Source of the DNA: a virus
Direction: 5' to 3' (one strand)
Length of the DNA: 24,286 bases
IMG/VR virus record: IMGVR_UViG_3300042514_001158
Location: 1 to 24,286 of that record
A model generated the notes under the pieces. It was not told the DNA's origin, made no database searches, and saw nothing but the letters and a program-made list of their open reading frames with translations. The position numbers and the translations under genes are program-made. Below are positions 1 to 18,000 of the stretch, piece after piece. Within the stretch, counting starts at the first letter, position 1, and each line of letters begins with the position of its first letter.

Positions 1-2
1 AT

Positions 3-1157
3 GACACAACAGCACTAGTGGATGACACATATTGTAAGGATAAAATAGAGTTCATGAATCTAATTAAAGATTCTTCTTTTGGCTCCCAATTTGCGTACAT
101 TGACGAAAATAACACATTGGTGTCAAATATCACATCTATAAATGATAACGGCGAACACCCTAATTTTATTTTAAAATCTAGATTTCCAGGTTATGACAAG
201 TTAATTTATCCAAAATTTTTTAAAGTTACAACTCAATCTGAATTAGACACTATAATAGCAAATAATGTTACAAGTGAGTATTTTTTAATGGAGTACCTAT
301 GTAACGTCAATAAACTATGGGAAGGGCATTTAACGGTTATAAGAAGTTTAAACATTTTAGTCCCACCAAATTTAGAATCAATTCAAATTGGCCAATATAC
401 AAAATTGAATCAAAATATGTTACTAGATAATGTGACATATGATTCAATCACATTTGAAGTATATTCAGATTTCAAAGAGAGTTATAGTACAAACCCACCT
501 ACCGGTTTTCAACCTAAATTATTGAATACTGATATGGTAGAAATGGCAGATGGGACATTAAAAACTGCATTGGATTTACAAATTGGGGACGTTATTAAAA
601 CAATTGAAATACCAAATGAAAAGGGAACTAGTATAGATAGTTACGTATCCTCCGAATTTGGGCTTACGTACGATACGTTGGTAAGTGATGCAATATATAC
701 AACTAATGTCGTAACCAAAAAACAAAAAGTAAACACCTTAACTTTTATAAATGAATTAACATTTGAAGATGCTAGTACCTGGGAAGATACTATGGGCTCA
801 AAGTATTTGATAGACAGAGAAGGTGTGGTTATGTTTAAATCATTATGGGGGATATTTCCAGGAGATGTGGTTATATTATTAGATACTACTGATGATAATA
901 TAAATTTTGTAAGAAAAACAGTTACATCAAATATTCAAGTTAAGAGAGTGTTCTCTGGTTGGTTTATTTCAGTTGATACCGCTATGTTATTTTTAACTAA
1001 AACAGCCGGGTCAACCAATAACGAATCATATGTTTCAATTGAACATAACCTTATATCTTGTCCCAATTGGACATGTACAAACGTTTGCTGGTCCGTCTGT
1101 CCATCATGTCCGAAGTATATGTCTTGTCAATCTAATTACTGTTTTCCAGTATGTTAA
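3..1157 (+). CDS. Probable phage structural protein with degenerate Hint domain, 5' partial
   Basis: The frame is open to the left edge of the window, so the true start probably lies outside; the first in-window start candidate is GTG at 18. The N-terminal ~160 residues match no family I recognise. From about 516 the protein resembles a Hint (intein/hedgehog-type) fold: a MADG turn at 543-554 followed by the LQIGDVI segment, a later FPGDVVIL segment near 860, and a final His-Asn pair at 1044-1049. The position where a Hint domain carries its nucleophilic Cys/Ser is Lys (516-518), so autoprocessing looks lost. The last 32 residues hold eight cysteines in short-spaced pairs, suggesting a metal- or disulfide-stabilised knob. 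Hint-like domains occur in phage virion proteins, and the fibre genes downstream fit a virion role. The Hint reading is by eye and moderately uncertain. Confidence 0.5.
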   Translation, partial: DTTALVDDTYCKDKIEFMNLIKDSSFGSQFAYIDENNTLVSNITSINDNGEHPNFILKSRFPGYDKLIYPKFFKVTTQSELDTIIANNVTSEYFLMEYLCNVNKLWEGHLTVIRSLNILVPPNLESIQIGQYTKLNQNMLLDNVTYDSITFEVYSDFKESYSTNPPTGFQPKLLNTDMVEMADGTLKTALDLQIGDVIKTIEIPNEKGTSIDSYVSSEFGLTYDTLVSDAIYTTNVVTKKQKVNTLTFINELTFEDASTWEDTMGSKYLIDREGVVMFKSLWGIFPGDVVILLDTTDDNINFVRKTVTSNIQVKRVFSGWFISVDTAMLFLTKTAGSTNNESYVSIEHNLISCPNWTCTNVCWSVCPSCPKYMSCQSNYCFPVC

Positions 1158-1299: not shown

Positions 1300-1833
1300 A
1301 TGATACATTTCATACCAAATATTCTTACTAAGGATGAGTGTGAATACTTAACGAATCAATTTGATTTCGAAAGAAAATATCAAATCTCGGTGGATAATGA
1401 ATATACTGGCACCAATATATCATATGGGTTTGCCCCTTCATTTGCGTTTAATACCTATTTAAATAAATTAAAATCAAAAGTGTTAGAATATAACAATAAT
1501 TTTGATGATTTATTCAATGTAAACACATTTGTTAGGGAATATATGAACACCTCAATGTTAAAAAAACATTTAGATAGAAAAGACATTAGTGTTACTATGT
1601 CTATATGTTTAGAATCCACAATAAATAAAGAATGGCCGTTATGTGCGGAAATCGGAAATAAGGAATATTGTTTCAACACAAATATTGGTGACGGTATTTT
1701 ATTATTTGATGCGGATAAAATCACACATTGGAGGGAACCCTTAATATGTCTGGAGAAAGAAAGAGTTGTCCAATTTTTTTTACATTGGAAACCTTCTGAT
1801 TACGTCGCAAAAAAAACAAAATCATTATTATAA
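1300..1833 (+). CDS. 2OG-Fe(II) dioxygenase-like protein (first of three)
   Basis: This 177-residue protein carries the full set of 2-oxoglutarate/Fe(II) oxygenase ligands. The iron-binding HxD is His90-Leu-Asp92, the distal His is His143 in the segment ITHWREP, and the 2OG-binding Arg is probably Arg155 in ERVVQFFLHW. The N-terminus (PNILTKDECEYL) matches the helix that opens the two other oxygenases at 1845 and 7594. Enzymes of this group hydroxylate proteins, sugars or nucleobases; the substrate cannot be read from sequence. It is the first gene of an eleven-gene accessory run and ends in KSLL, the first example of the shared C-terminal tail. An 11 bp A/T-rich gap separates it from the next gene. 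Confidence 0.75.
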   Translation: MIHFIPNILTKDECEYLTNQFDFERKYQISVDNEYTGTNISYGFAPSFAFNTYLNKLKSKVLEYNNNFDDLFNVNTFVREYMNTSMLKKHLDRKDISVTMSICLESTINKEWPLCAEIGNKEYCFNTNIGDGILLFDADKITHWREPLICLEKERVVQFFLHWKPSDYVAKKTKSLL

Positions 1834-1844
1834 AAAAATAAATT

Positions 1845-2429
1845 ATGCCATTTACATATACAATAGAGTCAACCTTTTTAACAAAAGAAGAATGTGATTT
1901 AATATTAGATTTTTCATTAAAAGAATTAAAATTAGTACCATCGGAAATTCTTACCAATTACACCGATGGTGGCGACGTTAATACCGATATTAGAAAATCA
2001 AATCAAGTATTTTACCCCTATTATAAAAAATTTCCATTTTTATTAGAAAAAATGAGTAAATTATTAAATCAACATATTTTTGTTAAAGGGTTCGATTTAG
2101 ATTTTAAAGAAAGTCAATTTCAGTTTACTGAGTATCATCCAGGCGGACATTTTGGCTGGCATAGAGATGCTCATGGAAAAAAAATAACGGATTATGACAG
2201 GTATTGTTCATTAGTGATACAACTAAATGATGAGTATGGAGAGGGTGATTTACAAATAAAAGATGATCAGAATGGGACCCTAACAGTTGAAAAGGGTACA
2301 GGAAATTTGATATTATTTTTATCAAATATTGAACATAGAGTAGTGCCAGTAAAAAGTGGGATTAGATATACACTAGTTAATTGGGTGAAATTAAAACAAA
2401 AAAAAGATTATAAAAAAACACTTTTATAG
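1845..2429 (+). CDS. 2OG-Fe(II) oxygenase, PKHD/prolyl-hydroxylase type
   Basis: This is the clearest oxygenase in the window, at 194 residues. The core reads HPGGHFGWHRDAH with the HxD pair His106/Asp108, then SLVIQLND, a GEGDL strand, the distal His164 in NIEHRV, and Arg174 in GIRYTLVNWV. This order is that of PKHD-type (PiuC-like) hydroxylases, which are common in marine phages. The reaction would be 2OG- and O2-dependent hydroxylation; the target is unknown, with protein or glycan substrates both plausible given the neighbours. The N-terminus FLTKEECDLI parallels the first oxygenase, so the two probably share ancestry but have diverged strongly. It ends in KTLL, and one base separates its stop from the next ATG. 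Confidence 0.9.
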   Translation: MPFTYTIESTFLTKEECDLILDFSLKELKLVPSEILTNYTDGGDVNTDIRKSNQVFYPYYKKFPFLLEKMSKLLNQHIFVKGFDLDFKESQFQFTEYHPGGHFGWHRDAHGKKITDYDRYCSLVIQLNDEYGEGDLQIKDDQNGTLTVEKGTGNLILFLSNIEHRVVPVKSGIRYTLVNWVKLKQKKDYKKTLL

Positions 2430-2430
2430 T

Positions 2431-2748
2431 ATGAAAATAAATTTTAAAGAAATATTAAATGCGTGGTATAATGTTATAAATCACACACCAGAACAAAAGG
2501 AATTAGCAGATAAAAGATTCGCAATATGTTTAGAATGCCCCTCTAAAATAGAAATTTTAAAATACAAGAAATGGCTTTTTAAATGTAAAGAATGTGGTTG
2601 CCCTTTAGGCGCAAAAGTTTACACTGAAACAACATATCTTACTAAAGACAAATCTTGTCCACTTGATAAATGGAAAGAAGTTGAAATGGAATTTATGAGT
2701 AAACATAGTGACACGATTAAATATAAAACTAAAAAAACATTTCTTTAG
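2431..2748 (+). CDS. Small Cys-rich, probably zinc-binding protein
   Basis: The 105-residue protein has six cysteines in an ordered pattern: Cys33-x2-Cys36 in ICLECP, then Cys52-x2-Cys55-x-Cys57 in CKECGCPLGAK, and Cys76 in SCPLDKW. The arrangement ELADKRFAIC...CxxCxCPL.AK...CPL.KW is a recurring small domain in phage and bacterial genomes, generally taken as a zinc ribbon; I cannot name its function. It lies between an oxygenase and a sulfotransferase-like gene, with gaps of 1 and 2 bases, so it is almost certainly cotranslated with them. It ends in KTFL, a Phe-containing variant of the run's C-terminal tail. A role as adaptor or metal carrier is only a guess. Confidence 0.8.
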   Translation: MKINFKEILNAWYNVINHTPEQKELADKRFAICLECPSKIEILKYKKWLFKCKECGCPLGAKVYTETTYLTKDKSCPLDKWKEVEMEFMSKHSDTIKYKTKKTFL

Positions 2749-2750
2749 TT

Positions 2751-3440
2751 ATGGGTTATTTAATAAACGATGACCTTTTATGGGTGATCACCCCTAAATG
2801 TGCTAGCGACTCAATAGAAACTGCATTATTAAACTCAAGTTTAAATTTAAAAAAATATAGCGAACACTTCGAACAACATACCCATATGCATATACCACTA
2901 AACGAGTGCTTAACTAAGTTTGGTAAAAAAGAAACAATATGTATCACTAGAGATTGGTTTGAAAAATGGTTAAGTTCATTAAATTTTATTTGGGATTATA
3001 TAGAATTATATAGTGAATATGAACCAGTATGTAAATGGGAGGACATCAATAATAATGTTATTTATGAGATATTTGATAGCGAATTTGTAAATAAACTTTA
3101 CTCATTAAATCATACCTCTAATGAAGAATGTTTTTTGAAATTATTAAAAAGGAACACCGAAGATATTATAAACGTACCCAAAGAAATTTATGGAATAATA
3201 ATAACTCTAATATCTGAACGCTATTGGAAAAGTAATGTAAAATGCACATATGAATTTGATATTAAAAAATTAGACGATTTTGTCAATTTCATTGAAAATA
3301 GGTTTGGTGAAAAATTAATAATAGAAAAGAAAAACGTATCTACAAAAAGACCAAATAAATTAATAGTAAATAATGAATTGAAATCTTTTGTTTGGGAAAA
3401 ATTTGAAAAAATATTTGAAAAAAGAAATCAATTAATTTAA
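2751..3440 (+). CDS. Sulfotransferase-like protein
   Basis: This 229-residue protein opens with WVITPKCASDSIETALL (residues 11-27), which fits the 5'-phosphosulfate loop of PAPS-dependent carbohydrate sulfotransferases, where P[KR]C[AG]S[TN]S is typical. The second binding segment is seen at residues 65-76, ITRDWFEKWLSS, with Arg67 and Ser75 in the places of the 3'-phosphate ligands. The middle is not recognisable. If active it would move a sulfate from PAPS to a sugar hydroxyl. It is one of three diverged members of this fold in the run (others at 4111 and 7062). It ends in NQLI, one of the weaker versions of the C-terminal tail, one base before the next ATG. Confidence 0.65.
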   Translation: MGYLINDDLLWVITPKCASDSIETALLNSSLNLKKYSEHFEQHTHMHIPLNECLTKFGKKETICITRDWFEKWLSSLNFIWDYIELYSEYEPVCKWEDINNNVIYEIFDSEFVNKLYSLNHTSNEECFLKLLKRNTEDIINVPKEIYGIIITLISERYWKSNVKCTYEFDIKKLDDFVNFIENRFGEKLIIEKKNVSTKRPNKLIVNNELKSFVWEKFEKIFEKRNQLI

Positions 3441-3441
3441 T

Positions 3442-4110
3442 ATGGCAACTATTTGGACATTTGGGGATTCATTTACTTCTGGAGACGGGTGTGTAGAAAA
3501 CCTAAGAATTAGAGACGGTGATTTTAGATATTATAACGAATATAAAAAACTAGGCAGTGATATATGGCCTAATTTATTAGGTAAAACTTTAGGATATGAC
3601 GTAAAAAATCTAGGAAAAAGCGGTGCAAGTAATGACTATATTTTAGATTCTATTATTGATAATTTTAACATGATAGAACCAAATGATGTGGTGATAATTG
3701 AAAAAACATTTTACCAAAGATTTGATATACCTAAATCAACGGGTGATGGGTTTCAAACAATTTATGCTGAAGGACTTTATCAACTTTCTATTGATTTAAA
3801 AATGGAAAGATATTTTTGTGAAGATAAATTAGAAATTGAAACGGTATTAAATTATGGTGTTTTATTTTCCGACAATAAATTATTTAAAGAAAGACAAGAT
3901 AAACGATTTGAATTTATACAAGCACAATTAAATAATAAAACAGATAAAATATTAATATGGGATGTTTTAGATTTTTTAGACGGTAAAATTGAAACAATAG
4001 GTCAACACACTGAGGGTAATATAAAAGATTATCATTTTAGTTTTAATGGTCATAAAAGATTTAGCGAATTTCTATATAAAAAATTATATATTAAACCCTC
4101 ATTAGTTTAA
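3442..4110 (+). CDS. SGNH/GDSL hydrolase-like protein
   Basis: The 222-residue protein shows the SGNH blocks. Block I is FGDSFTSGDG with the nucleophile Ser10. The Gly/Asn region is NLGKSGASNDYI (Gly61, Asn64). The C-terminal acid/base block is DYHFSFNGH, with Asp196 and His198 at the DxH spacing found in phage and marine relatives. Such enzymes remove O-acyl groups (for example acetyl) from carbohydrates, or act as acyltransferases. Its position between two sulfotransferase-like genes favours a glycan substrate, but nothing here proves that. There is no signal peptide, so it should act in the cytoplasm. It ends in PSLV, and its TAA abuts the next ATG with no spacer. Confidence 0.8.
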   Translation: MATIWTFGDSFTSGDGCVENLRIRDGDFRYYNEYKKLGSDIWPNLLGKTLGYDVKNLGKSGASNDYILDSIIDNFNMIEPNDVVIIEKTFYQRFDIPKSTGDGFQTIYAEGLYQLSIDLKMERYFCEDKLEIETVLNYGVLFSDNKLFKERQDKRFEFIQAQLNNKTDKILIWDVLDFLDGKIETIGQHTEGNIKDYHFSFNGHKRFSEFLYKKLYIKPSLV

Positions 4111-4842
4111 ATGTTAGTCGATAAAAAATTTATTTTTATAAGTTTACCAAGATGCGCATCAACATCATTTATGATTAGGTGTGTTAAAAACAAAATACCA
4201 ATAGAGCATTTCAACTCAAACCATGATAATCAGTTGATTAAAATCAATGAATGGGAAAAAATGGGTAATGAAGAATTGGCGGATAGATTAGTACATGCGC
4301 ACGAACCATTACATATGTTACAAGAAAAATTTGGGACGAACAACCAAATTATTTCAATAAAACGAAATAAGTACGATAGATTTTTATCTTTATGGAAACA
4401 CATCATAGACGAATTACACAGAATTAACAAACTTGATATTGCTGACATCTTTTCAAAATTAACAACTAATGATCTGTTTGTTAATATTAAACCAAATGAC
4501 ATTTATAATTCGGAAAATAGAATTAAAGTTATTGATAATTTTTTATCTAGGTTAGAAATTTCAAAAGAAGAATCTTACACTAAAAATATGTTAGATATAT
4601 TGTTTATGCCAGTAGTTGAACTTACAAATAACGACCCAAATATTATCTGGTTTGATATTAACAGTTTGAGAGATTTAGAAAATTGGGTGTCAAAAAAACT
4701 AAATAGAGATTTTAAAATGGAAAAAATAAATTCAAGTAAACATTTTAATTCAGTAATGGAGAACGATGATAATTTTAAACAGAAATATGATAATCTTTAT
4801 AAAGAATTTGACCAAAGAAAAACAACTAAAACATTATTGTAA
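4111..4842 (+). CDS. Sulfotransferase-like protein (second copy)
   Basis: At 243 residues, this is the best-preserved of the three sulfotransferase-like proteins. The PAPS-binding loop is FISLPRCASTSF (residues 9-20). The 3'-phosphate segment is ISIKRNKYDRFLSLWKH (residues 81-97), with Arg85 and Ser93 in the expected positions. A short HAHEPLHML stretch precedes it, as in carbohydrate sulfotransferases where a His in this region helps shape the acceptor pocket. The predicted activity is sulfation of a sugar hydroxyl. It diverges strongly from the copies at 2751 and 7062, so recent duplication is unlikely. It ends in KTLL, and its TAA overlaps the next ATG by one base. Confidence 0.7.
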   Translation: MLVDKKFIFISLPRCASTSFMIRCVKNKIPIEHFNSNHDNQLIKINEWEKMGNEELADRLVHAHEPLHMLQEKFGTNNQIISIKRNKYDRFLSLWKHIIDELHRINKLDIADIFSKLTTNDLFVNIKPNDIYNSENRIKVIDNFLSRLEISKEESYTKNMLDILFMPVVELTNNDPNIIWFDINSLRDLENWVSKKLNRDFKMEKINSSKHFNSVMENDDNFKQKYDNLYKEFDQRKTTKTLL

Positions 4843-6011
4843 TGGAAATTCAATTTTGGTATAGCGATATTTTACCAAATACAAATATTAGAAATTCAAT
4901 CGAAAAAATAGATAGTGACATCTTATTTAAAAATATCCACACCGATAAGGTAGATGTTACAAAATTAAATTTTTTATTTTTTTTGTTAGAAACTGAATGG
5001 ACTAATTCCGATATCCCAAACATAGCGTATACTCATTCTAGTGAATTTATTGAATTACTAATTAAGTTACAATCTGAAAATTTCTATTTTATGTGTAATA
5101 ATTCTGGGGAAGCCGAACTTTGGGTGGATAATTTATCCTTGAATTTTTTTAATTTGTTAAAAAAAAATAAAATTGATTTTAACAGATTAATAATTGTAAA
5201 TAACGATTCATCTAAAATTGGTATAGGTAAAACAAAATATGGGGATTTTATATTAAACACCTGTTTTTTTCCTAATTTCTTTTTATCTACCTATGAGCAT
5301 TTAAAGTCATATGTAACTGAATTAAACCCTAACACCATACCTGATAAAAAATTCTTATGTTTAAATAGAAGAATGGGTTATGAAAAATATAAATTAATCG
5401 AGAGGTTATATCATATGGGGTTGTTAAATGACACCAGATTTTCTTGGGTAAAAAATAGCACGAATAAAAATCTGTTAAATAAAGAATTACTTAATGAATT
5501 AAACATAGATGTTGATAACTTTAACCCTATTCAGTTAGAAGATGATGTAATGTATGGTGCTGATTTAGTTATGGAAAAGTATCTTTACACCATAAACCCC
5601 AAATGGTATTATAAAAGTAAAGTTAATATTATATTGGAAACAATGCTATACCCAAATTCAATTCATCTGACAGAAAAAACCTGGAAAGCAATTTATTTAG
5701 GTGTCCCGTTTGTTATATATTCACCATCTAAACACTATCTTAAAACCTTAAGGGATATGGGATTCAAGACATTTAATTCTGTGATTAATGAGGATTATGA
5801 TGAGATGCTAGGTAAAGATAAAATAACACAAGTTATAAAAAGCGCTGAAGAACTGGCTAGTATCTATGACACCCCCAAAGTATTAGATATATGTAGATTT
5901 AACCAAGAATTATATTTTAATTTTCAACACAGAAAAAAAATATATAATGAGTTTTTTTTAAATAAAATTTGTGATGTTAAAAACTTAACAATTCCTAAAA
6001 CATTAATTTAA
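4842..6011 (+). CDS. Glycosyltransferase-like protein with GT-B type C-terminal motif
   Basis: The 389-residue protein has an unrecognised N-terminal half and a more telling C-terminal half. A KFLCLNRRMGYEKYKLI segment near residues 170-186 is followed, near 275-300, by HLTEKTWKAIYLGVPFVIYSP and then MGFKTF. The TEK-x-[WF]-K-x-[IL]-x-x-G-x-PF pattern is seen in fucosyltransferase- and exostosin-like GT-B enzymes, where it binds the nucleotide-sugar donor, and in a large family of marine phage proteins. The donor and acceptor are unknown. The neighbours, a sulfotransferase and a radical SAM gene, suit a glycan pathway. It ends in KTLI with its stop directly against the next ATG. Confidence 0.6.
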   Translation: MEIQFWYSDILPNTNIRNSIEKIDSDILFKNIHTDKVDVTKLNFLFFLLETEWTNSDIPNIAYTHSSEFIELLIKLQSENFYFMCNNSGEAELWVDNLSLNFFNLLKKNKIDFNRLIIVNNDSSKIGIGKTKYGDFILNTCFFPNFFLSTYEHLKSYVTELNPNTIPDKKFLCLNRRMGYEKYKLIERLYHMGLLNDTRFSWVKNSTNKNLLNKELLNELNIDVDNFNPIQLEDDVMYGADLVMEKYLYTINPKWYYKSKVNIILETMLYPNSIHLTEKTWKAIYLGVPFVIYSPSKHYLKTLRDMGFKTFNSVINEDYDEMLGKDKITQVIKSAEELASIYDTPKVLDICRFNQELYFNFQHRKKIYNEFFLNKICDVKNLTIPKTLI

Positions 6012-7061
6012 ATGGGTAATAAAATTGATTTAAAAAATTATACGTGTAGTGTGCCATTTACATCATTAGAAATACATAACAATGTTTGTTTTGTGTGCTG
6101 TCCATCCTGGTTACCAAACAAAGTAGAACTTAGTGAAATTCCATTAAAAGATGTTTATAATAGCGAACCAATTATTGATATAAGAAACTCGATATTAGAT
6201 GGTTCATTTAGATATTGTAGTCAAGAGCTTTGTCCTTATTTAAGTAAATTAGTGAAGTATGGTGCGGAATCTGGGCCAGTCACTTTAAAATCAAATTCAA
6301 ATGTTAATAGCCCTATTGTAAAAAATAACGCACCAGATTATTTGATGATGAATTTTGATAGAACATGTAACTACAAATGTCCATCATGTAGAGTTGATTT
6401 AATAGTTGAAAATAGTGAGGGTATAAAACGTGTAGAAAAAACAATAGAGGAGATTGATAATCACTACTCGAAATATGTTAAAACCCTATATATTACTGGA
6501 TCAGGGGATCCGTTTGTTTCTGTCGGATTCAGAAATTATCTAAGAAATTTTAACCCTAAAAAATACCCAAACTTAAATTCCATACACCTACACACAAATG
6601 CGTCTATGTGGAATAAAGAAATGTGGGATAGTATGCCAAACATACACGGATATGTCCACTCTTGTGAAATTAGCATCGACGCTGGTACAAAAGACACCTA
6701 TGAAAATAAAACCAGGTTGGGTGGTAAATGGGATAATTTAATTGATAATTTAAAATTCATAAGCACTCTACCAATTTCAGTTAAAACATCATTTGTGGTT
6801 CAAGATTCCAATTACATGGAAATGGGTATTTTTTACAACTTAATGTACTCAATATTTGGTAAAAGAGTAAATGTGTTTTTTGGTAAGATAACTAATTGGG
6901 GGACATTTTCAGAAGGTGAATTTAAATTAAAACAAGTATGGGATACGGAACATCCAGAACATGAGTTATTTAAAAAAGAGTTTAATAAAGTATGGAAAAA
7001 TGAAAACCTTTTTCATAATTTATATGAGTTTATTGACAACACAAATAAAACTTTAATATAG
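6012..7061 (+). CDS. Radical SAM protein with N-terminal SPASM-like Cys cluster
   Basis: The radical SAM cluster motif is clear at residues 119-126, CNYKCPSC (C-x3-C-x2-C), inside MMNFDRTCNYKCPSCR. A TGSGDPF segment follows for SAM binding, and then SIDAGTKDTYE, a strand typical of the family. Ahead of the barrel lies a second Cys-rich region: Cys12, Cys26, Cys29, Cys30, Cys69 and Cys74. It resembles a SPASM-like auxiliary iron-sulfur site placed at the N-terminus rather than the usual C-terminus. Length is 349 residues. The reaction could be peptide or sugar modification; SPASM members often act on ribosomal peptides, but no peptide substrate is evident. It ends in KTLI, with no gap before the next ATG. 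Confidence 0.85.
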   Translation: MGNKIDLKNYTCSVPFTSLEIHNNVCFVCCPSWLPNKVELSEIPLKDVYNSEPIIDIRNSILDGSFRYCSQELCPYLSKLVKYGAESGPVTLKSNSNVNSPIVKNNAPDYLMMNFDRTCNYKCPSCRVDLIVENSEGIKRVEKTIEEIDNHYSKYVKTLYITGSGDPFVSVGFRNYLRNFNPKKYPNLNSIHLHTNASMWNKEMWDSMPNIHGYVHSCEISIDAGTKDTYENKTRLGGKWDNLIDNLKFISTLPISVKTSFVVQDSNYMEMGIFYNLMYSIFGKRVNVFFGKITNWGTFSEGEFKLKQVWDTEHPEHELFKKEFNKVWKNENLFHNLYEFIDNTNKTLI

Positions 7062-7622
7062 ATGAGAATTTTAATACTATCACATACAAGATGTGGTTCT
7101 ACCACATTATGTAAATGGATATCAAAAGAATTGAATTTTGAAGTAGATTATGATCATTACGATGCTAACACATTTAATTCAATTTTCATTAAAAATAATA
7201 TAATAAAAAAAATTGTTATCGAAGAATACAATCCACCAAATGAAGTTATTGAAAAATTTGATAAAGTTATTTGTTTAAGTAGGGAAAATAATATTGACAG
7301 TGCCATAAGTTTTATTAATGCTGATAACAAAAGCAGGTGGCACGACATATATGAAATAACAAATGAGTGGATTGAAGATAATAAAAATAAAATAATAGAA
7401 ACTGTTTACAAATATGAACAATTAAAAACCTTATTAAAAAATAAAGATTTATTTCAAATAACGTATGAAAATATGTATATTAATAAAATAGACGTTAATA
7501 GAGTTATTAGTTATTTAAACATTGAAAACCCAAAACATTTGGATATGCTTGATTATGATAAAAAATATAGAAAAGACACATATACTTTAACACATGATTT
7601 TAAGAGAAAAAATATCATTTAG
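7062..7622 (+). CDS. Sulfotransferase-like P-loop protein (third copy, diverged)
   Basis: The 186-residue protein starts MRILILSHTRCGSTTLCKWI. Residues 8-16 match the phosphosulfate loop of sulfotransferases, and VICLSRENNIDSAISF (residues 69-84) matches the 3'-phosphate segment, with Arg74 and Ser80. It is shorter than the copies at 2751 and 4111 and lacks much of the acceptor region, so it could be a minimal enzyme or a non-catalytic relative. It is unusually Asn/Lys/Ile-rich, in the most AT-rich stretch of the window. Its 3' end overlaps the next gene by 29 bases. It ends in KNII, a weaker form of the shared tail. Confidence 0.6.
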   Translation: MRILILSHTRCGSTTLCKWISKELNFEVDYDHYDANTFNSIFIKNNIIKKIVIEEYNPPNEVIEKFDKVICLSRENNIDSAISFINADNKSRWHDIYEITNEWIEDNKNKIIETVYKYEQLKTLLKNKDLFQITYENMYINKIDVNRVISYLNIENPKHLDMLDYDKKYRKDTYTLTHDFKRKNII

Positions 7623-8124
7623 TAAAGATGAGTGTGATTACATAATAAATTTATCCAAAGAGTTGGATGAACTTAAACCATTTGGTTATGATGACAATGT
7701 TAATAAAGAAAAAATAACAATTAGATATTTTGTTTGGGTTATCAATAGAAACAATAAAACCCAATGGATATTTGATAAAATTCAAACGTATTTTATAAAT
7801 AAAACTAATATAAAGATAAAAAAAGAATTAGATAAAATATATATACACAAATATGACACCGGCCAACAATTTGAAAAACATGCTGACACATATTATAAAA
7901 CACAAATACACAATGTAGGGGTATGTTTAAACAATGATTATGATGGAGGTGAATTTGTTTTATATAATCCAGAAGAACAATTACCAAAAGAAACGGGTAA
8001 CATATATACTTTCCCTAGTCAAAGAATACATGAAGTAAAAAAAATAATAAAGGGTGAAAGGTGGAGCATTATTGGATTTTTACATATTGATAATTTAGAT
8101 TTCCCTAAAAAATCACTAATATGA
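7594..8124 (+). CDS. 2OG-Fe(II) oxygenase (third)
   Basis: The 176-residue oxygenase has HxD at His96/Asp98 (FEKHADTY), NNDYDGGEF as the following strand-turn, the distal His146 in SQRIHEV, and Arg156 in KGERWSIIGFLH. This is a complete prolyl-4-hydroxylase-like core. The start at 7594 is favoured because it yields ISFSKDECDYII, the same opening helix as the oxygenases at 1300 and 1845, and no later in-frame ATG keeps it. This start lies inside the preceding gene, giving a 29-base overlap in another frame. It ends in KSLI, and its TGA overlaps the next ATG in an ATGA junction. Confidence 0.85.
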   Translation: MILREKISFSKDECDYIINLSKELDELKPFGYDDNVNKEKITIRYFVWVINRNNKTQWIFDKIQTYFINKTNIKIKKELDKIYIHKYDTGQQFEKHADTYYKTQIHNVGVCLNNDYDGGEFVLYNPEEQLPKETGNIYTFPSQRIHEVKKIIKGERWSIIGFLHIDNLDFPKKSLI

Positions 8125-8678
8125 AAATTGGAATAACAGGACATTCTAACGGAATTGGAAATGACATTTATTCAAATTTAATAAAAGAATATGATGTTAT
8201 AGGATTTAGTAGAAGTAATGGTTTTGATATTAAAAATACGGATAAAATTATAGAACAATTGGATGATTGTGATATTTTTATAAACAACGCTTACGAAGGA
8301 AACTATCAAACAATATTATTTGAATTAATTTTTGATAAATGGAAATTTTTACCAAAAACAATTATTAATATGAATAGCAGTTGTGTGTATCATTCATCCG
8401 ATTGGTCGCCAGAATATGCAAATAATAAAAAAGAGTTAAAAGAAGTATCTTTAAATGCGATTAGAAATAATAAAAATAAAAAAGTTAGGGTCATAAATTT
8501 ATATCCATCCACCTTATCAACTCATATGGGGTTTGAAAGTTTAAATAAATTAGATACTGAAAATCTTGCAAAAATTATAAATTGGTTAATAAAACAACCA
8601 CAAGAAATAGAAATTAGAGAGATGAGTATATATTGTACAACATTGGAGAAAGAATTTAAAACAAATAAATTAATATGA
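8121..8678 (+). CDS. Short-chain dehydrogenase/reductase-like protein
   Basis: The 185-residue protein has the SDR dinucleotide-binding start GITGHSNGIG (residues 4-13, the TGxxxGxG pattern), then NNAY (55-58), a catalytic-type Ser in NMNSSCVY (84-90), and the YxxxK pair Tyr99/Lys103. A LYPSTLSTHMG segment corresponds to the post-catalytic PG motif region. It is much shorter than the usual ~250 residues, because the stretch between the Rossmann start and the active site is compact. It probably reduces or oxidises a sugar or small carbonyl with NAD(P)H. It is the last gene bearing the run's C-terminal tail (NKLI) and overlaps the next start in an ATGA junction. Confidence 0.75.
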   Translation: MKIGITGHSNGIGNDIYSNLIKEYDVIGFSRSNGFDIKNTDKIIEQLDDCDIFINNAYEGNYQTILFELIFDKWKFLPKTIINMNSSCVYHSSDWSPEYANNKKELKEVSLNAIRNNKNKKVRVINLYPSTLSTHMGFESLNKLDTENLAKIINWLIKQPQEIEIREMSIYCTTLEKEFKTNKLI

Positions 8679-9445
8679 AATCAATAAAATTTTGGAATAA
8701 AAGCGGATTCGATGTTGCAACTTATAAATGGAATTTATCAGAAAGACGTAATAAAACATTTAATGGCTCTGGTTCGGATGATAGTGAAACCAATACCTAC
8801 ACATATAATGAACTAGGATTCAGAGGTGATTCAATATACAAGGATGGGTTTAGAATCCTGTCTGTCGGTTGTTCACATACGGAAGGTGTGGGGGTAAATG
8901 ACTGGGAAACTTGGCCGCATATATTTTCTAGGTTAATACCTAATGGTATTGATTTAAATGCTGGGTTTGGTGGTAGAAGTAATGATTACATTGCTAGGTG
9001 TATTGTGTCCTTAATTGACACCTTTAGACCCAATCTGGTTAATCTAATGTACACATACCCCTCAAGAAAAGAATACTACAAGTTTAATGGGGATTTAGAG
9101 CCCTTTCATATGACCCCCTGGGGATATTTCAAAGAAGATTCGGAAGGTGTTGATGAATACAAGGCAATCGCAAAGATAACCCATGATGAAAATGATTTGA
9201 TTAATTGGTATAAAAATCATTTATTAATAACCAATTTCCTATCACTAAGAAAAATCCCATATACTTGGAATGGTTCTTTTCTAATGGATGAAGTTATATC
9301 AGATAAACATCGTTTTGATGGTGACTATGGTAACTTCAGAGAGTTTTCCGTTGACGGTAAACATGCAACAGGAAAACACAATGAAGAATATGCCAAAAAT
9401 TTATATGACTTCATTAAGAAAAACTTCCCAACATATATCCCTTAG
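8675..9445 (+). CDS. SGNH hydrolase-like protein (GCSH variant)
   Basis: The 256-residue protein resembles the SGNH fold with a modified block I. Residues 62-73 read LSVGCSHTEGVG, so the GDS turn has become GCSH while keeping the Ser67 nucleophile. The Gly/Asn block is NAGFGGRSNDYIAR (Gly100, Asn103), and the C-terminal pair is Asp227-x2-His230 in DGKHATGKHN. This variant is common in marine phage genomes. The likely role is deacylation of a carbohydrate. It starts by an ATGA overlap with the preceding gene but ends in TYIP, without the tail shared by the eleven genes before it. G+C also rises here, which suggests a module boundary close to its 5' end. Confidence 0.7.
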   Translation: MKSIKFWNKSGFDVATYKWNLSERRNKTFNGSGSDDSETNTYTYNELGFRGDSIYKDGFRILSVGCSHTEGVGVNDWETWPHIFSRLIPNGIDLNAGFGGRSNDYIARCIVSLIDTFRPNLVNLMYTYPSRKEYYKFNGDLEPFHMTPWGYFKEDSEGVDEYKAIAKITHDENDLINWYKNHLLITNFLSLRKIPYTWNGSFLMDEVISDKHRFDGDYGNFREFSVDGKHATGKHNEEYAKNLYDFIKKNFPTYIP

Positions 9446-9486: not shown

Positions 9487-12207
9487 ATGAATATATTAGC
9501 ACATACGTCGTTTATTGGTACCACTGGGTATGCCAATCATGCAAGGTCGTTTTTCTGCGCCTTAAACAAGTATCACAAAGTAAGGGTTAGAAACCTTACC
9601 ATTGGTAATAGTTGGAATGATTATAATGAAAAGCCACACGAAGGCGAATCATATATCACTGATGAGATGAAGGATATGTTAATCCTTCAAAGTTTGTTTA
9701 ACGCTGATGGTTCAACTAGTGATTATCCAATTTATAACTTTAAAAAAGATTTTGTTCCAGATGTCCACATTGTTTTGGTGGAAACCGACAACATTTATTT
9801 TTATCATGATTATGATGGCTATAAAATAGCGTACAATGTTTGGGAATCAACATTATATCCAGATAATTTCTTCAAGCGACTATTTTACTTTGATGAGGTT
9901 TGGGTGCCGACCAAGTGGCAGTTTGATTGTTTAGTTGCGCAAGGGTATCCTGCTGAAAAAATATCTATAGTTCCAGAAGGTGTTGATGTTGACACATTTA
10001 AACCAATAGAAAAATACCCACAAAGAGATAAGATTAGATTTGTGTATTTTGGTCGTTGGGATTATAGAAAAGGAACGACTGAAGTACTCAGAGCTTTTGG
10101 TGAGGTCTTTAAAGATGTTGATGATGTAGAATTAATTGCATCTGTTGAGAACCCGTACCCGAACGATGGTTTAAAGTCAACAGAGGAACGAATTAAAAAA
10201 CACGAAATTGATACAGAGAAAATAACGTTTCTTAATTTTCCATCGAGAGAAGAATATGTAAAATACTTACAAGAAGCACATGTATTTGTTTCTTGTGCTA
10301 GAAGCGAAGGTTGGAATCTACCGCTTATTGAAGCGATGGCTTGCGGTACGCCGGCCATTTATTCTAATTGGGGTGGTCAACTAGAATTTGCTGAAGGTAA
10401 AGGTGTTCCGGTTAGTATCAAGGAATTAAGACCTGCTAACATAGAAAGAAAAGAATTTCCAGGTGAATATTGTGAACCAGATTGGGATGACCTTAAATGG
10501 AAAATGAGACAAGCGTACGATTATCAAACAGCTATGTGGATTAAATCCAGATCTGATGCTAAAGATATTCACAAGAACTTTAATTGGGAAACAATAGCTG
10601 AAAACGCATCAAAAATAATCAACTCTAGATTCAAGTCATTTGCATTTGTTACAACTGGTAACTTACAATATATGCCGGTTATTGAAAAGTTGGTACAATC
10701 ATTAATGATGTTTTCAAGACACAAGATAATTGTTTATGGTGTTGATTGTGAAGTGCCGTTTGATTATCCTAATGTGATTAGAAAAACAATCAATCCACCC
10801 AAAATATCAGAACACGATAAATGGTATTGGAAACAATGGGCTTGTTTGGAATCATTAAACGAAGATTTTGATTATTATATTTGGGTTGACGGTGATGTTG
10901 TTGTTAATTACAATATCGATACCGTTACAAAATATTTCAAACATGTTGGTAGATATCCATTGTCGGATATACATGTTCAAGAAGAATTCTTTGGAACATA
11001 TGATGACGGTAAAACGCAATTGTTTAATGAAGAGTTAGCTAAAAGATGGGGTGTTGAAAAACAACAACCATACATGCATATTTGTTTCTACATTTACAAT
11101 CAAGGTTCAAGAGCATTTTTTGATGGTATATTGGGATATTATGACACAATGATGAAAGGTAGCCCTGAAGATTATAAACGATATTTTTTATGGAATGATG
11201 AAGGTATTGATAATGCAATAAGATGGAACCACGGTTTTACTAATCATTTACCTATATCAAATTTTGACACATCATCATATGATGGGGATGAAGGGTTTAT
11301 TGATAAAACGTTACATCAGTTTTATAAGTTCTGGAATGAAGATGGTCCACAAAACTTCAATAGAATATTTGGGTATCAATTTATACCAGAAGATAAATCA
11401 AATATATTATATTTCCACGGGAATAAGAATGCTGAGATATCGGACAAGATGATTGAGTTTATTAAAATGAAAAGAGATGATTCATTTTATAAGTCATATT
11501 GTTTTTATACTGACGTATATAAATTGGAAAACTTTAATCAATATTTCAATATTGAAGGGGGTACAATTGAGATAGCAAACAAACATGGTTGGTTTGTTGC
11601 CATATTTCACGAGATATTTAATCTTTTGGATTATTATAAAAATAGAGAGAGAAGAATCTTTGATGGCGACGTTGTAGTTGAGTTGGGTGGGAATATCGGC
11701 ATCTTTAATAGATGGGCGTACAGTCAAGGTGCTAGCAAAGTTATTTCGTTTGAGCCAGATAAAAGATACTTTAAACTTCTCTCATTAAATGCTGATCCGC
11801 GTTCTGTATTATTCAATGCTGCGGGAAGTGATTCTATTGGTGAATTAAGTTTATTTGAGAGCACACACATAGGTGGATCTAATTTATTTGGAACACAGGA
11901 AGGTGCTAAAGAATATAAGGTAAGAACATATACGCTAGATTATCTTTTTGAAACGGGGTTAGTTGATAAAATAGATTTTCTAAAGGTAGACATTGAGGGA
12001 GCAGAACATCACGCGTTCAAAGGTATCAGCGATGAAAACCTAATGAAAGTTAAAAACATTTCAATGGAATATCACCATAGCCACTTTGATTATGACGAAG
12101 AATTGAGACAAGATTTAATTAATCGTATGGTTAGATTAGGTTTTAACCCCTACACATTGTTTATGGGTGACAATAACGCACTACAAATGATATATTTTAC
12201 AAGATGA
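9487..12207 (+). CDS. Three-domain glycosyltransferase (GT4 + GT-A) and FkbM methyltransferase fusion
   Basis: The 906-residue protein carries three enzymes in one chain. Residues 1 to ~370 are a GT4 retaining glycosyltransferase: GTTGYANHARSF near the N-terminus, FVYFGRWDYRKG in the second Rossmann domain, and the donor-binding Glu274-x7-Glu282 in SEGWNLPLIEAMACGTP. Residues ~390-650 look like a GT-A domain, with a WVDGDVVV metal-binding DxD around 466-470. Residues ~690-906 are an FkbM-type SAM methyltransferase, with VVELGGNIGIF near 730 and FLKVDIEGAE near 831-840. Together they could add two sugars and O-methylate the product. A 41 bp gap precedes it, the longest inside the + strand run up to here. 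It overlaps the next gene by ATGA. Confidence 0.85.
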   Translation: MNILAHTSFIGTTGYANHARSFFCALNKYHKVRVRNLTIGNSWNDYNEKPHEGESYITDEMKDMLILQSLFNADGSTSDYPIYNFKKDFVPDVHIVLVETDNIYFYHDYDGYKIAYNVWESTLYPDNFFKRLFYFDEVWVPTKWQFDCLVAQGYPAEKISIVPEGVDVDTFKPIEKYPQRDKIRFVYFGRWDYRKGTTEVLRAFGEVFKDVDDVELIASVENPYPNDGLKSTEERIKKHEIDTEKITFLNFPSREEYVKYLQEAHVFVSCARSEGWNLPLIEAMACGTPAIYSNWGGQLEFAEGKGVPVSIKELRPANIERKEFPGEYCEPDWDDLKWKMRQAYDYQTAMWIKSRSDAKDIHKNFNWETIAENASKIINSRFKSFAFVTTGNLQYMPVIEKLVQSLMMFSRHKIIVYGVDCEVPFDYPNVIRKTINPPKISEHDKWYWKQWACLESLNEDFDYYIWVDGDVVVNYNIDTVTKYFKHVGRYPLSDIHVQEEFFGTYDDGKTQLFNEELAKRWGVEKQQPYMHICFYIYNQGSRAFFDGILGYYDTMMKGSPEDYKRYFLWNDEGIDNAIRWNHGFTNHLPISNFDTSSYDGDEGFIDKTLHQFYKFWNEDGPQNFNRIFGYQFIPEDKSNILYFHGNKNAEISDKMIEFIKMKRDDSFYKSYCFYTDVYKLENFNQYFNIEGGTIEIANKHGWFVAIFHEIFNLLDYYKNRERRIFDGDVVVELGGNIGIFNRWAYSQGASKVISFEPDKRYFKLLSLNADPRSVLFNAAGSDSIGELSLFESTHIGGSNLFGTQEGAKEYKVRTYTLDYLFETGLVDKIDFLKVDIEGAEHHAFKGISDENLMKVKNISMEYHHSHFDYDEELRQDLINRMVRLGFNPYTLFMGDNNALQMIYFTR

Positions 12208-15028: not shown

Positions 15029-18000
15029 ATGAATATATTTGACGCACACATATCGGGATCATTATCCGTATCAAGTTCAGCCGAAATTTCGGGTGATTTA
15101 AAAGTTTTAGGAACAATTAGTGGTTCCTTTAGTGGTGATGGCTCTAATATCACAAACATCCCAGCGGGTGGTGTTGTTGGACTTAATTTAACACGAATAG
15201 CTGACGGTGCATCAACAGCATCAATTTCAAATACAGATGGTTTAAGAATTAATACAAATTCAGAAATTACTGGTTCATTAATTATAACCGGTGATTTAAT
15301 TATAAGTGGAACATCTTTTAATGCCGCGACCTCAGGTACATCTGGTACATCAGGAACCTCAGGTACATCTGGAACCTCAGGGTCTTCAGGTTCAAGTGGA
15401 ACATCAGGTACTAGTGGAACTAGCGGAACCTCAGGAAGTTCAGGATCAAGTGGAACATCGGGATCAAGTGGAAGTTCTGGTTCTAGCGGAACGTCAGGTA
15501 CGAGTGGTTCTTCAGGTACATCTGGCACATCAGGAACCTCAGGTTCATCGGGAAGTTCGGGTACGTCTGGAACCAGCGGAAGTTCTGGGTCATCAGGTAC
15601 AAGTGGAACATCTGGTTCATCCGGAAGTTCTGGTTCTAGTGGAACATCGGGATCAAGCGGTACCTCAGGCACTAGTGGAACCTCAGGATCAAATGGTAGT
15701 TCGGGCACGAGTGGTTCTTCGGGTTCATCTGGAAGTTCGGGTACGTCAGGTACTAGTGGAAGTAGCGGTTCTTCAGGAACATCTGGTTCTTCAGGAACAT
15801 CAGGTTCAAGTGGTAGTTCTGGTACTAGTGGAAGTAGTGGTTCTTCAGGAACCGCTGGAACTTCAGGAACCTCAGGTTCTAGTGGTAGTTCTGGAACATC
15901 AGGTTCTAGTGGATCTAGCGGAACCGCTGGTACAAGTGGTACATCGGGATCTTCTGGTTCTAACGGGTCGTCAGGTACTTCAGGAACAAGCGGAACATCT
16001 GGTTCATCAGGAACTTCAGGTTCATCAGGTTCTAGTGGAACGAGCGGTAGTTCTGGTTCATCAGGAACATCAGGTTCTAACGGGTCGTCAGGTACTTCAG
16101 GAACAAGCGGAACATCTGGTTCATCAGGAACTTCAGGTTCATCAGGTTCTAGTGGAACATCTGGGTCTTCAGGGTCAAGCGGTACATCAGGTTCAAGCGG
16201 AAGTTCAGGAACATCCGGAAGTTCAGGGTCTAGTGGTACAGCGGGGACATCAGGAACCTCAGGTTCTAGTGGATCTAGTGGATCTAGCGGAACCGTAACA
16301 ATGAGCGGAACACAAGACAATGGTGTTCTAACACTTAATGGTTCCTCACCAAACGTAACTGCGGAAAATAATTTAAGATTTGATGGTTCACTTTTAACCG
16401 TTGTTGGTAACGAAACAATATCTGGTTCCTTAATTGTGACAAACAATTTTACAGTATTAGGTTCATCCTCAATAACATACGTAACATCATCTCAATTAAG
16501 AGTTGAAGACAATATTATCACAGTAAACACTGCTAGCCCTGGATCTAGATTTGGTGGACTAGAAGTTCATGATTCAGGATCGGTTGGTATTGCTACTGGT
16601 TCAATTCTTTGGGATTCTGTTAACAATAGATGGATTTATCAAAACTCAAGTGAGGCGGGTTATGGTGGCGGTGTATTATTGTCAGGTCCTAGAAGTTCTG
16701 GTTCACTAGGTAGTGAATTAACATTAACTAGTGGTAGAGTTGCAAAGTCAGCGGGCGGAGACCACTTAAATGATTCAAATATAACAGACAACGGTACAAC
16801 CGTTTCGATAAATTCAAATACAGAAATCACTGGTTCATTAATTGTTACTGGTGGTAATAAATTAGTTGTAAATGCTACTGGTGGTGATGAAGGTGGTGAA
16901 ATTTTATTAGGGAAAGCGTTAACTAATACAACACTTGTTGGTGAGGGAGTTACAGTAGATATTTGGCAAAATAGATTAAGATTTTTTGAACAAGGTGGAA
17001 CTGCGAGAGGTGCATATATTGATATCTCAAGTTTAGCGGCAGGTGTTGGTACCAACCTGGTTGGTGCTGGTTCATCAGGTACTTCTGGAACTAGTGGTAC
17101 CTCTGGCACATCGGGTTCTAGTGGAACATCAGGATCTAATGGTTCGTCTGGTACGTCAGGTTCATCAGGAACAAGTGGTACAAGTGGTAGTTCAGGATCT
17201 AATGGTTCATCTGGCACGTCAGGGTCTTCAGGGTCTAGCGGAACATCGGGATCTAATGGTTCATCTGGCACGTCAGGAACATCGGGTTCTAATGGTTCTA
17301 GTGGAACATCAGGTTCTTCAGGTTCTAGTGGAACATCTGGTTCATCCGGAAGTTCTGGTTCAAGTGGGACCTCAGGTTCTTCAGGTAGTTCAGGTTCATC
17401 CGGAACAAGTGGAAGTTCGGGAACATCAGGTTCTAATGGTTCTAGTGGAACATCAGGTTCTTCAGGTAGTTCAGGGTCAAGCGGAACGTCTGGGTCTTCA
17501 GGTTCTAGTGGTACTTCGGGTACTTCAGGAAGCTCAGGAACAAGTGGGTCTTCAGGTTCTTCTGGATCTAGTGGAACATCGGGTTCTAACGGATCTAGTG
17601 GTACGTCGGGTTCATCAGGTTCTAGCGGTTCTAGTGGAACTTCAGGTTCTTCTGGTTCTAGCGGAAGTTCAGGAACAAGTGGATCTTCAGGGTCTAGTGG
17701 TTCAAGTGGAACCAGTGGTAGTTCGGGGAGTTCTGGTTCAAGTGGAACATCTGGGTCTTCAGGAAGTTCTGGTTCTAGCGGGTCTTCTGGTACGTCAGGT
17801 ACTTCTTTTGCTAATAGTTTTAATATAAATCAAAATTTAGGAACAAGTAACTCACCAACATTTGGTGGTTTAACAATTACAGGTGGTGGTTCAGTTAGCA
17901 CAGTATTAACAGGTGCTAACGTTGGTGACTTATTGTATGCATCAATTGCTGATAACGATTATTTCAGATTAAGAGTTGGTGGTACAGCAACAAATGCCGG

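Follow-up and report, generated by a model that had tools for sequence, protein, structure and literature searches.

A recurrent four-residue C-terminal tail on diverse phage-encoded enzymes near a Hint-domain protein: a candidate docking tag

Why should a run of neighbouring phage genes, whose products fall into several fold classes, close on nearly the same four residues? The question is raised by IMG/VR virus record IMGVR_UViG_3300042514_001158, positions 1 to 24,286 of which were analysed as a single stretch of 24,286 nucleotides (nt), hereafter the window. A first-pass annotation, made from the letters alone, had listed eleven consecutive gene products ending in KSLL, KTLL, KTFL, NQLI, PSLV, KTLL, KTLI, KTLI, KNII, KSLI and NKLI; the ends read at the corresponding stops (1833, 2429, 2748, 3440, 4110, 4842, 6011, 7061, 7622, 8124 and 8678) matched this list exactly. 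We hold, with somewhat more belief than doubt, that this tail is a C-terminal docking tag that recruits a varying set of modification enzymes to a common partner. The best candidate for that partner, or for the carrier of the substrate, is the product of a neighbouring gene family, here called F3.

Genes were called with an ATG-only open reading frame script (minimum 40-45 amino acids (aa)). Tails were scored with a loose pattern, [KNRQ][STNKQ][LIFM][LIVFM]-COOH, and with two strict forms, K[ST][LIF][LIV] for the window and K[STN][LIF][LIVF] for the survey of other contigs. The loose pattern fits 10 of the 11 window ends (PSLV being the exception), compared with 19 of 2400 internal 4-mers of the same proteins (binomial 1e-20), and K[ST][LIF][LIV] fits 7 of 11 ends versus 3 of 2400 internal 4-mers (binomial 2e-18). 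Both end patterns were picked post hoc, with the window tails already known, so that the wider tests on multiple contigs bear the weight. None of the 13 other genes called in the window fits the loose pattern. The description of the tailed proteins as unrelated was slightly overstated, since those starting at 1300, 1845 and 7594 are all 2-oxoglutarate (2OG)-oxygenase-like and those at 2751 and 4111 belong to one family; a count of about seven fold classes is fair, with two of them (4842, 2751) resting on motif reading by eye. Nor is the tail limited to 1300-8678: the gene that follows, 8675-9445, ends in TYIP here and has tailed relatives in other contigs (QNLI, KSLI), with a tail in 16 of the 48 members of this family (C7). 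The run and its flanking genes are listed below; names obtained by motif reading are marked, and the carbamoyltransferase and C11 (nucleotidyltransferase-like) labels and several of the sulfotransferase, glycosyltransferase and SGNH labels used in the text have the same basis.

1..1157, plus strand: F3, 3' part; part of an ATP-grasp-like domain, then a Hint domain, then a Cys-rich peptide; no tail
516..1049, plus strand: F3 residues 283-460, a Hint/intein-like domain; Z 14.2 to intein 4o1s by VIA-align; ends in the invariant His459-Asn460; residue 283 is Lys
1050..1154, plus strand: hypervariable Cys-rich C-terminal peptide of F3, LISCPNWTCTNVCWSVCPSCPKYMSCQSNYCFPVC; predicted local distance difference test score (pLDDT) < 50 at 462-495 in the model of a homologue
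1300..1833, plus strand: 2OG-oxygenase-like; tail KSLL at 1819-1830; PHROG 2954 (labelled ferrochelatase), E 4e-20, and phrog_61 (2OG), E 0.003; no Pfam match
1845..2429, plus strand: 2OG-Fe(II) oxygenase; tail KTLL at 2415-2426; PF13640, E 1e-13
2431..2748, plus strand: small CxxC protein (zinc-ribbon-like by motif reading); tail KTFL at 2734-2745; phrog_13558 (function unassigned); family C6
2751..3440, plus strand: sulfotransferase-like (motif reading); tail NQLI at 3426-3437; no Pfam or PHROG match; family C4, shared with 4111
3442..4110, plus strand: GDSL/SGNH-like; tail PSLV at 4096-4107; PF13472, E 5e-4, under the cut-off
4111..4842, plus strand: sulfotransferase-like; tail KTLL at 4828-4839; phrog_3347, E 5e-5; family C4
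4842..6011, plus strand: glycosyltransferase-like, family C8 (motif reading); tail KTLI at 5997-6008; no Pfam or PHROG match
6012..7061, plus strand: radical SAM enzyme; tail KTLI at 7047-7058, predicted to be disordered; PF04055, E 2e-7; pLDDT < 50 at residues 345-349
7062..7622, plus strand: sulfotransferase-like, family C5 (motif reading); tail KNII at 7608-7619, 3' of the start of the next gene
7594..8124, plus strand: 2OG-Fe(II) oxygenase; tail KSLI at 8110-8121; PF13640, E 6e-11
8121..8678, plus strand: short-chain-dehydrogenase-like (SDR-like); tail NKLI at 8664-8675; PF00106, E 3e-5, just under the cut-off
8675..9445, plus strand: final gene of the run, SGNH-like, family C7 (motif reading); no Pfam match; ends in TYIP here, with a tail in some other contigs

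The tail is widespread. Two scans, of which the one with the radical SAM protein was represented by the best 80 of 86, yielded 94 viral contig loci, several of them sharing contigs. Strict ends were carried by 204 of the 1179 distinct products of these loci and the window, most frequently as KTLI (n=71), and the consensus, K-[TS]-[LI]-[IL], closes a polar stretch. After addition of ten large contigs, 214 strict tails were found among 2722 products, confined to just 24 of 1049 families (singletons counted), and 64 of 100 groups of loci contained at least three loose-pattern ends. As the sequences are related, these counts are not independent events; as the tag families were defined by containing tails, that choice leaves unaffected only the comparisons with gap, frame and other families. 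In those large contigs, tails were on 70 of 107 members of tag families within 12 kb of F3, compared with 7 of 163 members of other families. Farther away, tailed members made up 10 of 45 (12-30 kb) and 7 of 29 (> 30 kb) in the tag families, and 14 of 1504 in other families beyond 12 kb. In most contigs the tails cluster in one accessory region, and scattered ones are often on GDSL, sulfotransferase- or glycosyltransferase-like proteins. Two neighbouring SGNH-like genes in L141 (G010 42581-44022), about 26 kb from F3, both end in NTYRKSLL. On a contig whose run matches that of the window, a second radical SAM gene (L017:981-2060) lies across F3 from the run and ends in NHLL.

The tail is also family-specific. 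Loose tails were present in 125 of 193 2OG oxygenases, 53 of 87 radical SAM proteins, 46 of 59 and 35 of 55 members of sulfotransferase-like families, 40 of 52 CxxC proteins (C6) and 22 of 30 members of C12. Other families of the same neighbourhood are untailed, namely F3 itself (0/68) and the carbamoyltransferase-like (0/40), C11 (0/32), APS kinase (0/26) and DUF2061 (0/26) families, the last two names being Pfam-confirmed on one member each; a DUF2061 gene sits with overlaps amid tailed genes in L189 and G003. APS kinase, which supplies the sulfate donor, was found in 22 of 50 tagged contig groups. Further tailed proteins gave matches to Trp_halogenase (E 5e-89), SET, Asp_Arg_Hydrox, Glyco_transf_25 and Radical_SAM plus SPASM, and the enzyme repertoire differs strongly between contigs. 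The tail marks one system, not one fold. As to its carriers, a contractile-tailed phage is indicated by tail sheath and baseplate genes in the large contig G002, and a TonB-plug outer-membrane protein and a lipoprotein-like signal sequence (the latter by motif reading) in L221, a relative with F3, suggest a host in Bacteroidota.

Is it the peptide or the underlying DNA that is maintained? In one explanation, the tail is the translation-start or re-initiation signal of the downstream gene, read as peptide. The next start indeed abuts most tailed genes (gap of <=3 nt in 141 of 204 strict tails), and Bacteroidota are known to initiate translation without a Shine-Dalgarno sequence, as described for F. 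johnsoniae (PMC6847099). Codon use in the tails is nevertheless near that of the same genes (Thr ACA 0.49 versus 0.51, Leu TTA 0.75 versus 0.68, Lys AAA 0.94 versus 0.89). The clearest departure is the preference for ATA as the final Ile codon (0.64 in tails versus 0.47; P 8e-4), which is expected because ATA-TGA yields an ATGA start overlap. The tail is retained across gaps of 35, 61, 81 and 121 nt, and the two cases on which the first-pass annotation had relied, 11 bp between 1833 and the next gene and a 29-nt overlap at 7594/7622, are both real. Near F3, the tail was kept without an adjacent next gene (gap > 20 nt) in 63 of 110 members of tag families, and 91 of the 110 end in two aliphatic residues; in other families near F3 whose next gene abuts, a tail was seen in only 25 and two aliphatic end residues in 56 of 289. 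Family thus decides the tail more than the gap does. The DNA word for tail plus stop occurred at 235 in-frame gene ends and 143 times elsewhere (off-frame, antisense or, in 18 cases, intergenic), compared with 188 times in a reversed-sequence control; the motif shows no off-frame excess. The tail is therefore selected as a peptide, not as DNA, as the first-pass annotation had argued from codon differences, and we give a translation signal almost no credence as its cause, the ATA preference being what is left of it.

A second DNA-level explanation, a short homology used for shuffling gene cassettes, would suit the strong variation of the gene repertoire among contigs. Tails of different families, however, share codons equally within and between contigs (0.84/0.82, 0.43/0.45, 0.53/0.51 and 0.52/0.53 at the four positions), which removes the cassette idea and leaves it next to no probability in our judgement. 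AT-rich chance was also considered as the origin of the tail and was ruled out by the codon, gap, frame and contig comparisons.

Which neighbour accompanies the tail? F3 is the family present in the largest number of tagged contig groups: it was found in 47 of 50 groups with at least three tags and at least 12 kb, and the three exceptions are contig slices whose parent contigs have F3 outside the slice. Conversely, all 57 groups (of 100) with a strong F3 match contain at least one tag; 54 have at least three and 3 have one or two (L218 has one, and a single tag in a group may be chance). Among the 40 groups without a match, 31 hold 0-2 tags and the remaining nine, two of them with an F3 fragment, begin inside the run at a sequence edge. 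Three groups matched weakly, two of them without tags and the third (L183) with a cut-off F3 and three tags. F3 is directly followed by a gene of 45-46 aa (L185:7016-7156, with equivalents in L186-L190) ending in approximately KxKHL(S), whose family (C20) is found in 17 contig groups and is tailed in 0 of 17.

A complete F3 homologue comprises 495 aa (L003:2077-3564), and by arithmetic from it the window gene starts about 330 nt before the window. The F3 model (pLDDT 83.7) contains a Hint domain at 279-462, which was superimposed on intein 4o1s with 146 residues aligned and a root-mean-square deviation of 2.7. His459-Asn460 and Cys464 are invariant in 43 of 43 aligned sequences, and residue 283, structurally aligned to intein residue 1, is K in 29, Y in 13 and F in 1 of the 43. 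With no Cys, Ser or Thr at this position, splicing is not expected. An intein domain that lacks the N-terminal nucleophile can still cut after Asn. By this analogy, only C-terminal cleavage is plausible for F3, and it could free the C-terminal peptide. For the N-terminal part, Foldseek paired F3 with glutathione synthetase 1m0t (E 2.6e-5, at a template modelling (TM) value of only 0.23), and E22, N24, R108 and K169 are invariant; the 50 VIA matches shown are all intein or Hedgehog Hint structures, aligned mainly to 279-462, and have no bearing on the ATP-grasp part. F3 gave no PHROG match (L003), no Pfam family above the cut-off (four single-Hint members) and no match to PDB sequences better than E 0.025.

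The C-terminal peptide is Cys-rich, hypervariable and 25-55 residues long in 50 of the 60 groups called F3-positive. Of the other ten, six (L073, L078, L080, L090, L092 and L095; type D) finish with HNK or a close variant, L183 is truncated, and L010, L012 and L016, which have a weak match or none to the F3 profile, are probably not F3 proper. In the L080 protein (220-2961), Pfam Hint and Intein_splicing each match three stretches, giving three Hint domains; it lacks the Cys-rich peptide and ends in HNK. L073 and L078 are similar in length and end. The loose tail rate near F3 is 0.48 for type D versus 0.65 for type A and 0.72 for type B, and tail sequences differ only mildly among F3 types. 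Trp makes up 0.086 of the core peptide in halogenase groups versus 0.034 (p 0.003), an excess that is not relied on because the seven halogenase groups share a single F3 type and the comparison was one among many residue-enzyme pairs.

Do homologues outside the F3 setting carry the tail? In INPHARED (50,697 phage records), it was found in 0 of 5 halogenases examined (of 78 matches) and in 0 of 4 2OG homologues examined (of 329 matching records). The ten halogenase alignments listed from INPHARED stop at residue 393 or less of 405. All seven halogenases of the fetched contigs, chosen by an N-terminal motif, end in two of L/I (KTLI three times, KSLI, KKII, SKLL and KELI), five of them fitting the loose pattern; judged from these sequences, the tail on halogenases looks like an extension. 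Tailed or, in L189 (KELI), near-tailed tryptophan halogenases lie beside an F3 with a Trp/Cys-rich terminal peptide in L185 (1983-3200), L187 (5071-6285), L186 and L189. INPHARED yielded no match for the radical SAM protein, F3 or the 4111 sulfotransferase-like protein, and scans of GTDB in which an exact peptide pattern was needed first gave none for the radical SAM protein or F3. For the 4842 protein (C8), 26 distant homologous loci without F3 are untailed and the 7 closer ones listed are tailed, where "without F3" means that none was found in the 5-17 kb examined per locus. The C8 list omits L250, L252, L253, L255 and L275 (duplicates of kept loci) and the close loci L226-L231, L234 and L239-L243, and several of the loci kept are still near one another.

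How might such a tail work? The K-[T/S]-[L/I]-[I/L]-COOH end would be a short linear motif acting in trans as a recruitment tag: the free carboxylate and both aliphatic side chains would lodge in a single groove of a shared partner, through which a variable set of modification enzymes would reach one substrate. The Hint domain of F3 would be able in principle to cut after His-Asn. In the single tailed model that was made, that of the radical SAM protein (pLDDT 87), the exception to confident folding is mainly the conserved NKTLI end (< 50), and KTLI is conserved in most of 23 aligned sequences; a tail conserved yet unfolded is as expected of a short linear motif. The first-pass annotation had likened the tail to class I PDZ ligands. 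The [ST]-x-[LIV] form is indeed met by 8 of the 11 window tails, and T or S occupies the -3 position in 54% (type A) and 67% (type B) of the tag-family members near F3. A PDZ partner in the same phages did not come to light: PDZ_2 and PDZ_6 exceeded the cut-off in 0 of 16 related records, a search that covered phage fragments only and did not include PF00595, and the host could supply such a protein. The single weak PDZ_2 match (E 0.02) lies within an SDR-like gene, and the control genomes were positive in 14 of 14 cases.

Several observations weigh against docking at F3. The binding partner of the tail remains a candidate only. F3 of type D has no Cys-rich peptide, yet its neighbours are tagged, so that the peptide cannot be the sole substrate. 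One large contig with F3 (G006) has 0 strict tails, and some tagged genes are over 30 kb away from F3. Near F3, the loose pattern is missed by 28-52% of tag-family members, varying with F3 type, and in further tag families only a part of the members have tails (20/69 and 16/48 for GDSL-like, 16/41 for C8). Distant homologues lack the tail and are also divergent (27-43% identity), so that the two effects are confounded; in addition, a C8 homologue in L236 ends in TNLI with no F3 found in its 17 kb. There, a lone relative of the 4842 protein (8001-9158) stands amid small unrelated genes, and the tail seems to travel with the protein. At the codon level, small biases are seen for Thr, Ser and Lys in tails (P 0.01-0.04), and within tag families a gap effect exists (tails in 211/299, or 0.71, at <=3 nt, 36/70, or 0.51, at 4-20 nt, and 0.57 at > 20 nt). 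Identical tail codons also exceed pooled expectation (Lys 0.84 versus 0.66; last two positions 0.53 versus 0.42 and 0.52 versus 0.41); since this holds within and between contigs, AT codons are somewhat more frequent in the tails than in the pool.

Two other functions of the peptide were weighed. Targeting elsewhere than to F3, such as packaging into the virion or delivery to the membrane, to a compartment made by the phage or to a protein of the host, would account for the tags far from F3, for some clusters near fibre genes and for the peptide-less type D; the near-constant presence of F3 in tagged groups, the highest of any family, and the failure to find F3 in the sequence around distant untailed homologues speak against it, and we regard it as unlikely. 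Rather improbable, in our estimate, is a degron or protease signal, in which the two aliphatic end residues would limit enzyme lifetime by attracting a protease of host or phage origin. In general, C-terminal degrons do look like this disordered end and its two aliphatic residues; the preceding K-[TS] is also conserved, however, which proteases reading nonpolar tails would not need, and the tag is on one functional class beside one partner while other families of the neighbourhood are spared.

A more specific form of the docking reading is a new phage peptide-tailoring system, which we put forward tentatively and doubt more than we believe. The Hint domain would free the Cys-rich peptide by Asn cyclisation, and a pocket of the ATP-grasp or Hint part of F3 would bind enzymes ending in K-[TS]-L-I, which would hydroxylate, halogenate, sulfate, methylate, cross-link or glycosylate the F3 peptide. 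Any enzyme that gained the four-residue tail would be enlisted; if so, the enzyme set would be freely exchangeable and the product fast-evolving, for example an adhesin, a toxin against competitors or an anti-host agent.

Elsewhere in the window, a glycosyltransferase group 1 domain is fused to an FkbM methyltransferase (9487-12207; 0 of 20 family members tailed). A 1288-aa fibre-like protein with long GTSGSSG repeats is encoded at 15029-18895, with four genes between it and the tailed run; the antisense open frames across this region are an apparent by-product of the repeats.

What, then, does the tail mean? One C-terminal peptide on about nine enzyme classes (GDSL and SDR by weak matches), which goes with one phage system and is absent from the distant relatives examined, suggests that phages recruit modification chemistry in a modular, plug-in manner. 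If the tag docks, it would be a minimal tool for steering enzymes to a target, and an obscure accessory region would become a testable source of modified Cys-rich peptides. The tail is also a marker, readable from sequence, for further members of the system. The components (docking motifs, Hint cleavage, tailoring enzymes) are already known; their combination was not found in the collections scanned or by word searches of open-access papers.

Among known systems, inteins, bacterial intein-like (BIL) domains and Hedgehog proteins share the Hint fold with terminal His-Asn, and F3 differs from splicing inteins in having no Cys, Ser or Thr aligned to residue 1. Clusters for ribosomally synthesised and post-translationally modified peptides (RiPPs) are, from general knowledge, alike in placing a hypervariable Cys-rich peptide gene beside halogenase, hydroxylase, radical SAM, SET, sulfotransferase-like and glycosyltransferase genes; unlike these, the present system is phage-borne, its peptide stands behind an ATP-grasp-like part and a Hint domain, and its enzymes share a common tag. 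Parts of a paper on marine ribosomal peptides and phages (PMC11118758) deal with host peptides and infection networks. The KDEL/RDEL signals of the eukaryotic endoplasmic reticulum and the peroxisomal targeting signal PTS1 are likewise short free C-terminal labels on unrelated, co-located enzymes; they use other residues, whereas the present tail belongs to a bacterial virus and is not known to have a compartment or receptor. Encapsulin cargo-loading peptides, which go with a dedicated HK97-fold shell, were a further comparison considered. Closest are the C-terminal short linear motifs (SLiMs), paired with beta-hairpin docking domains, of non-ribosomal peptide synthetases (NRPSs) and polyketide synthase (PKS)-NRPS hybrids, which, according to PMC9113145, are disordered, shorter than 15 residues and recruit a partner; in one solved NRPS docking pair only the last five residues bind, and one motif can serve several partners. 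The NRPS motifs join megasynthases pairwise through charged residues, whereas the phage tag has a hydrophobic end, sits on many free-standing enzymes and has no known receptor. The phage tail resembles them in being a short C-terminal motif, conserved and, in one model, disordered, and by this analogy the NRPS docking SLiM may serve as its nearest working counterpart.

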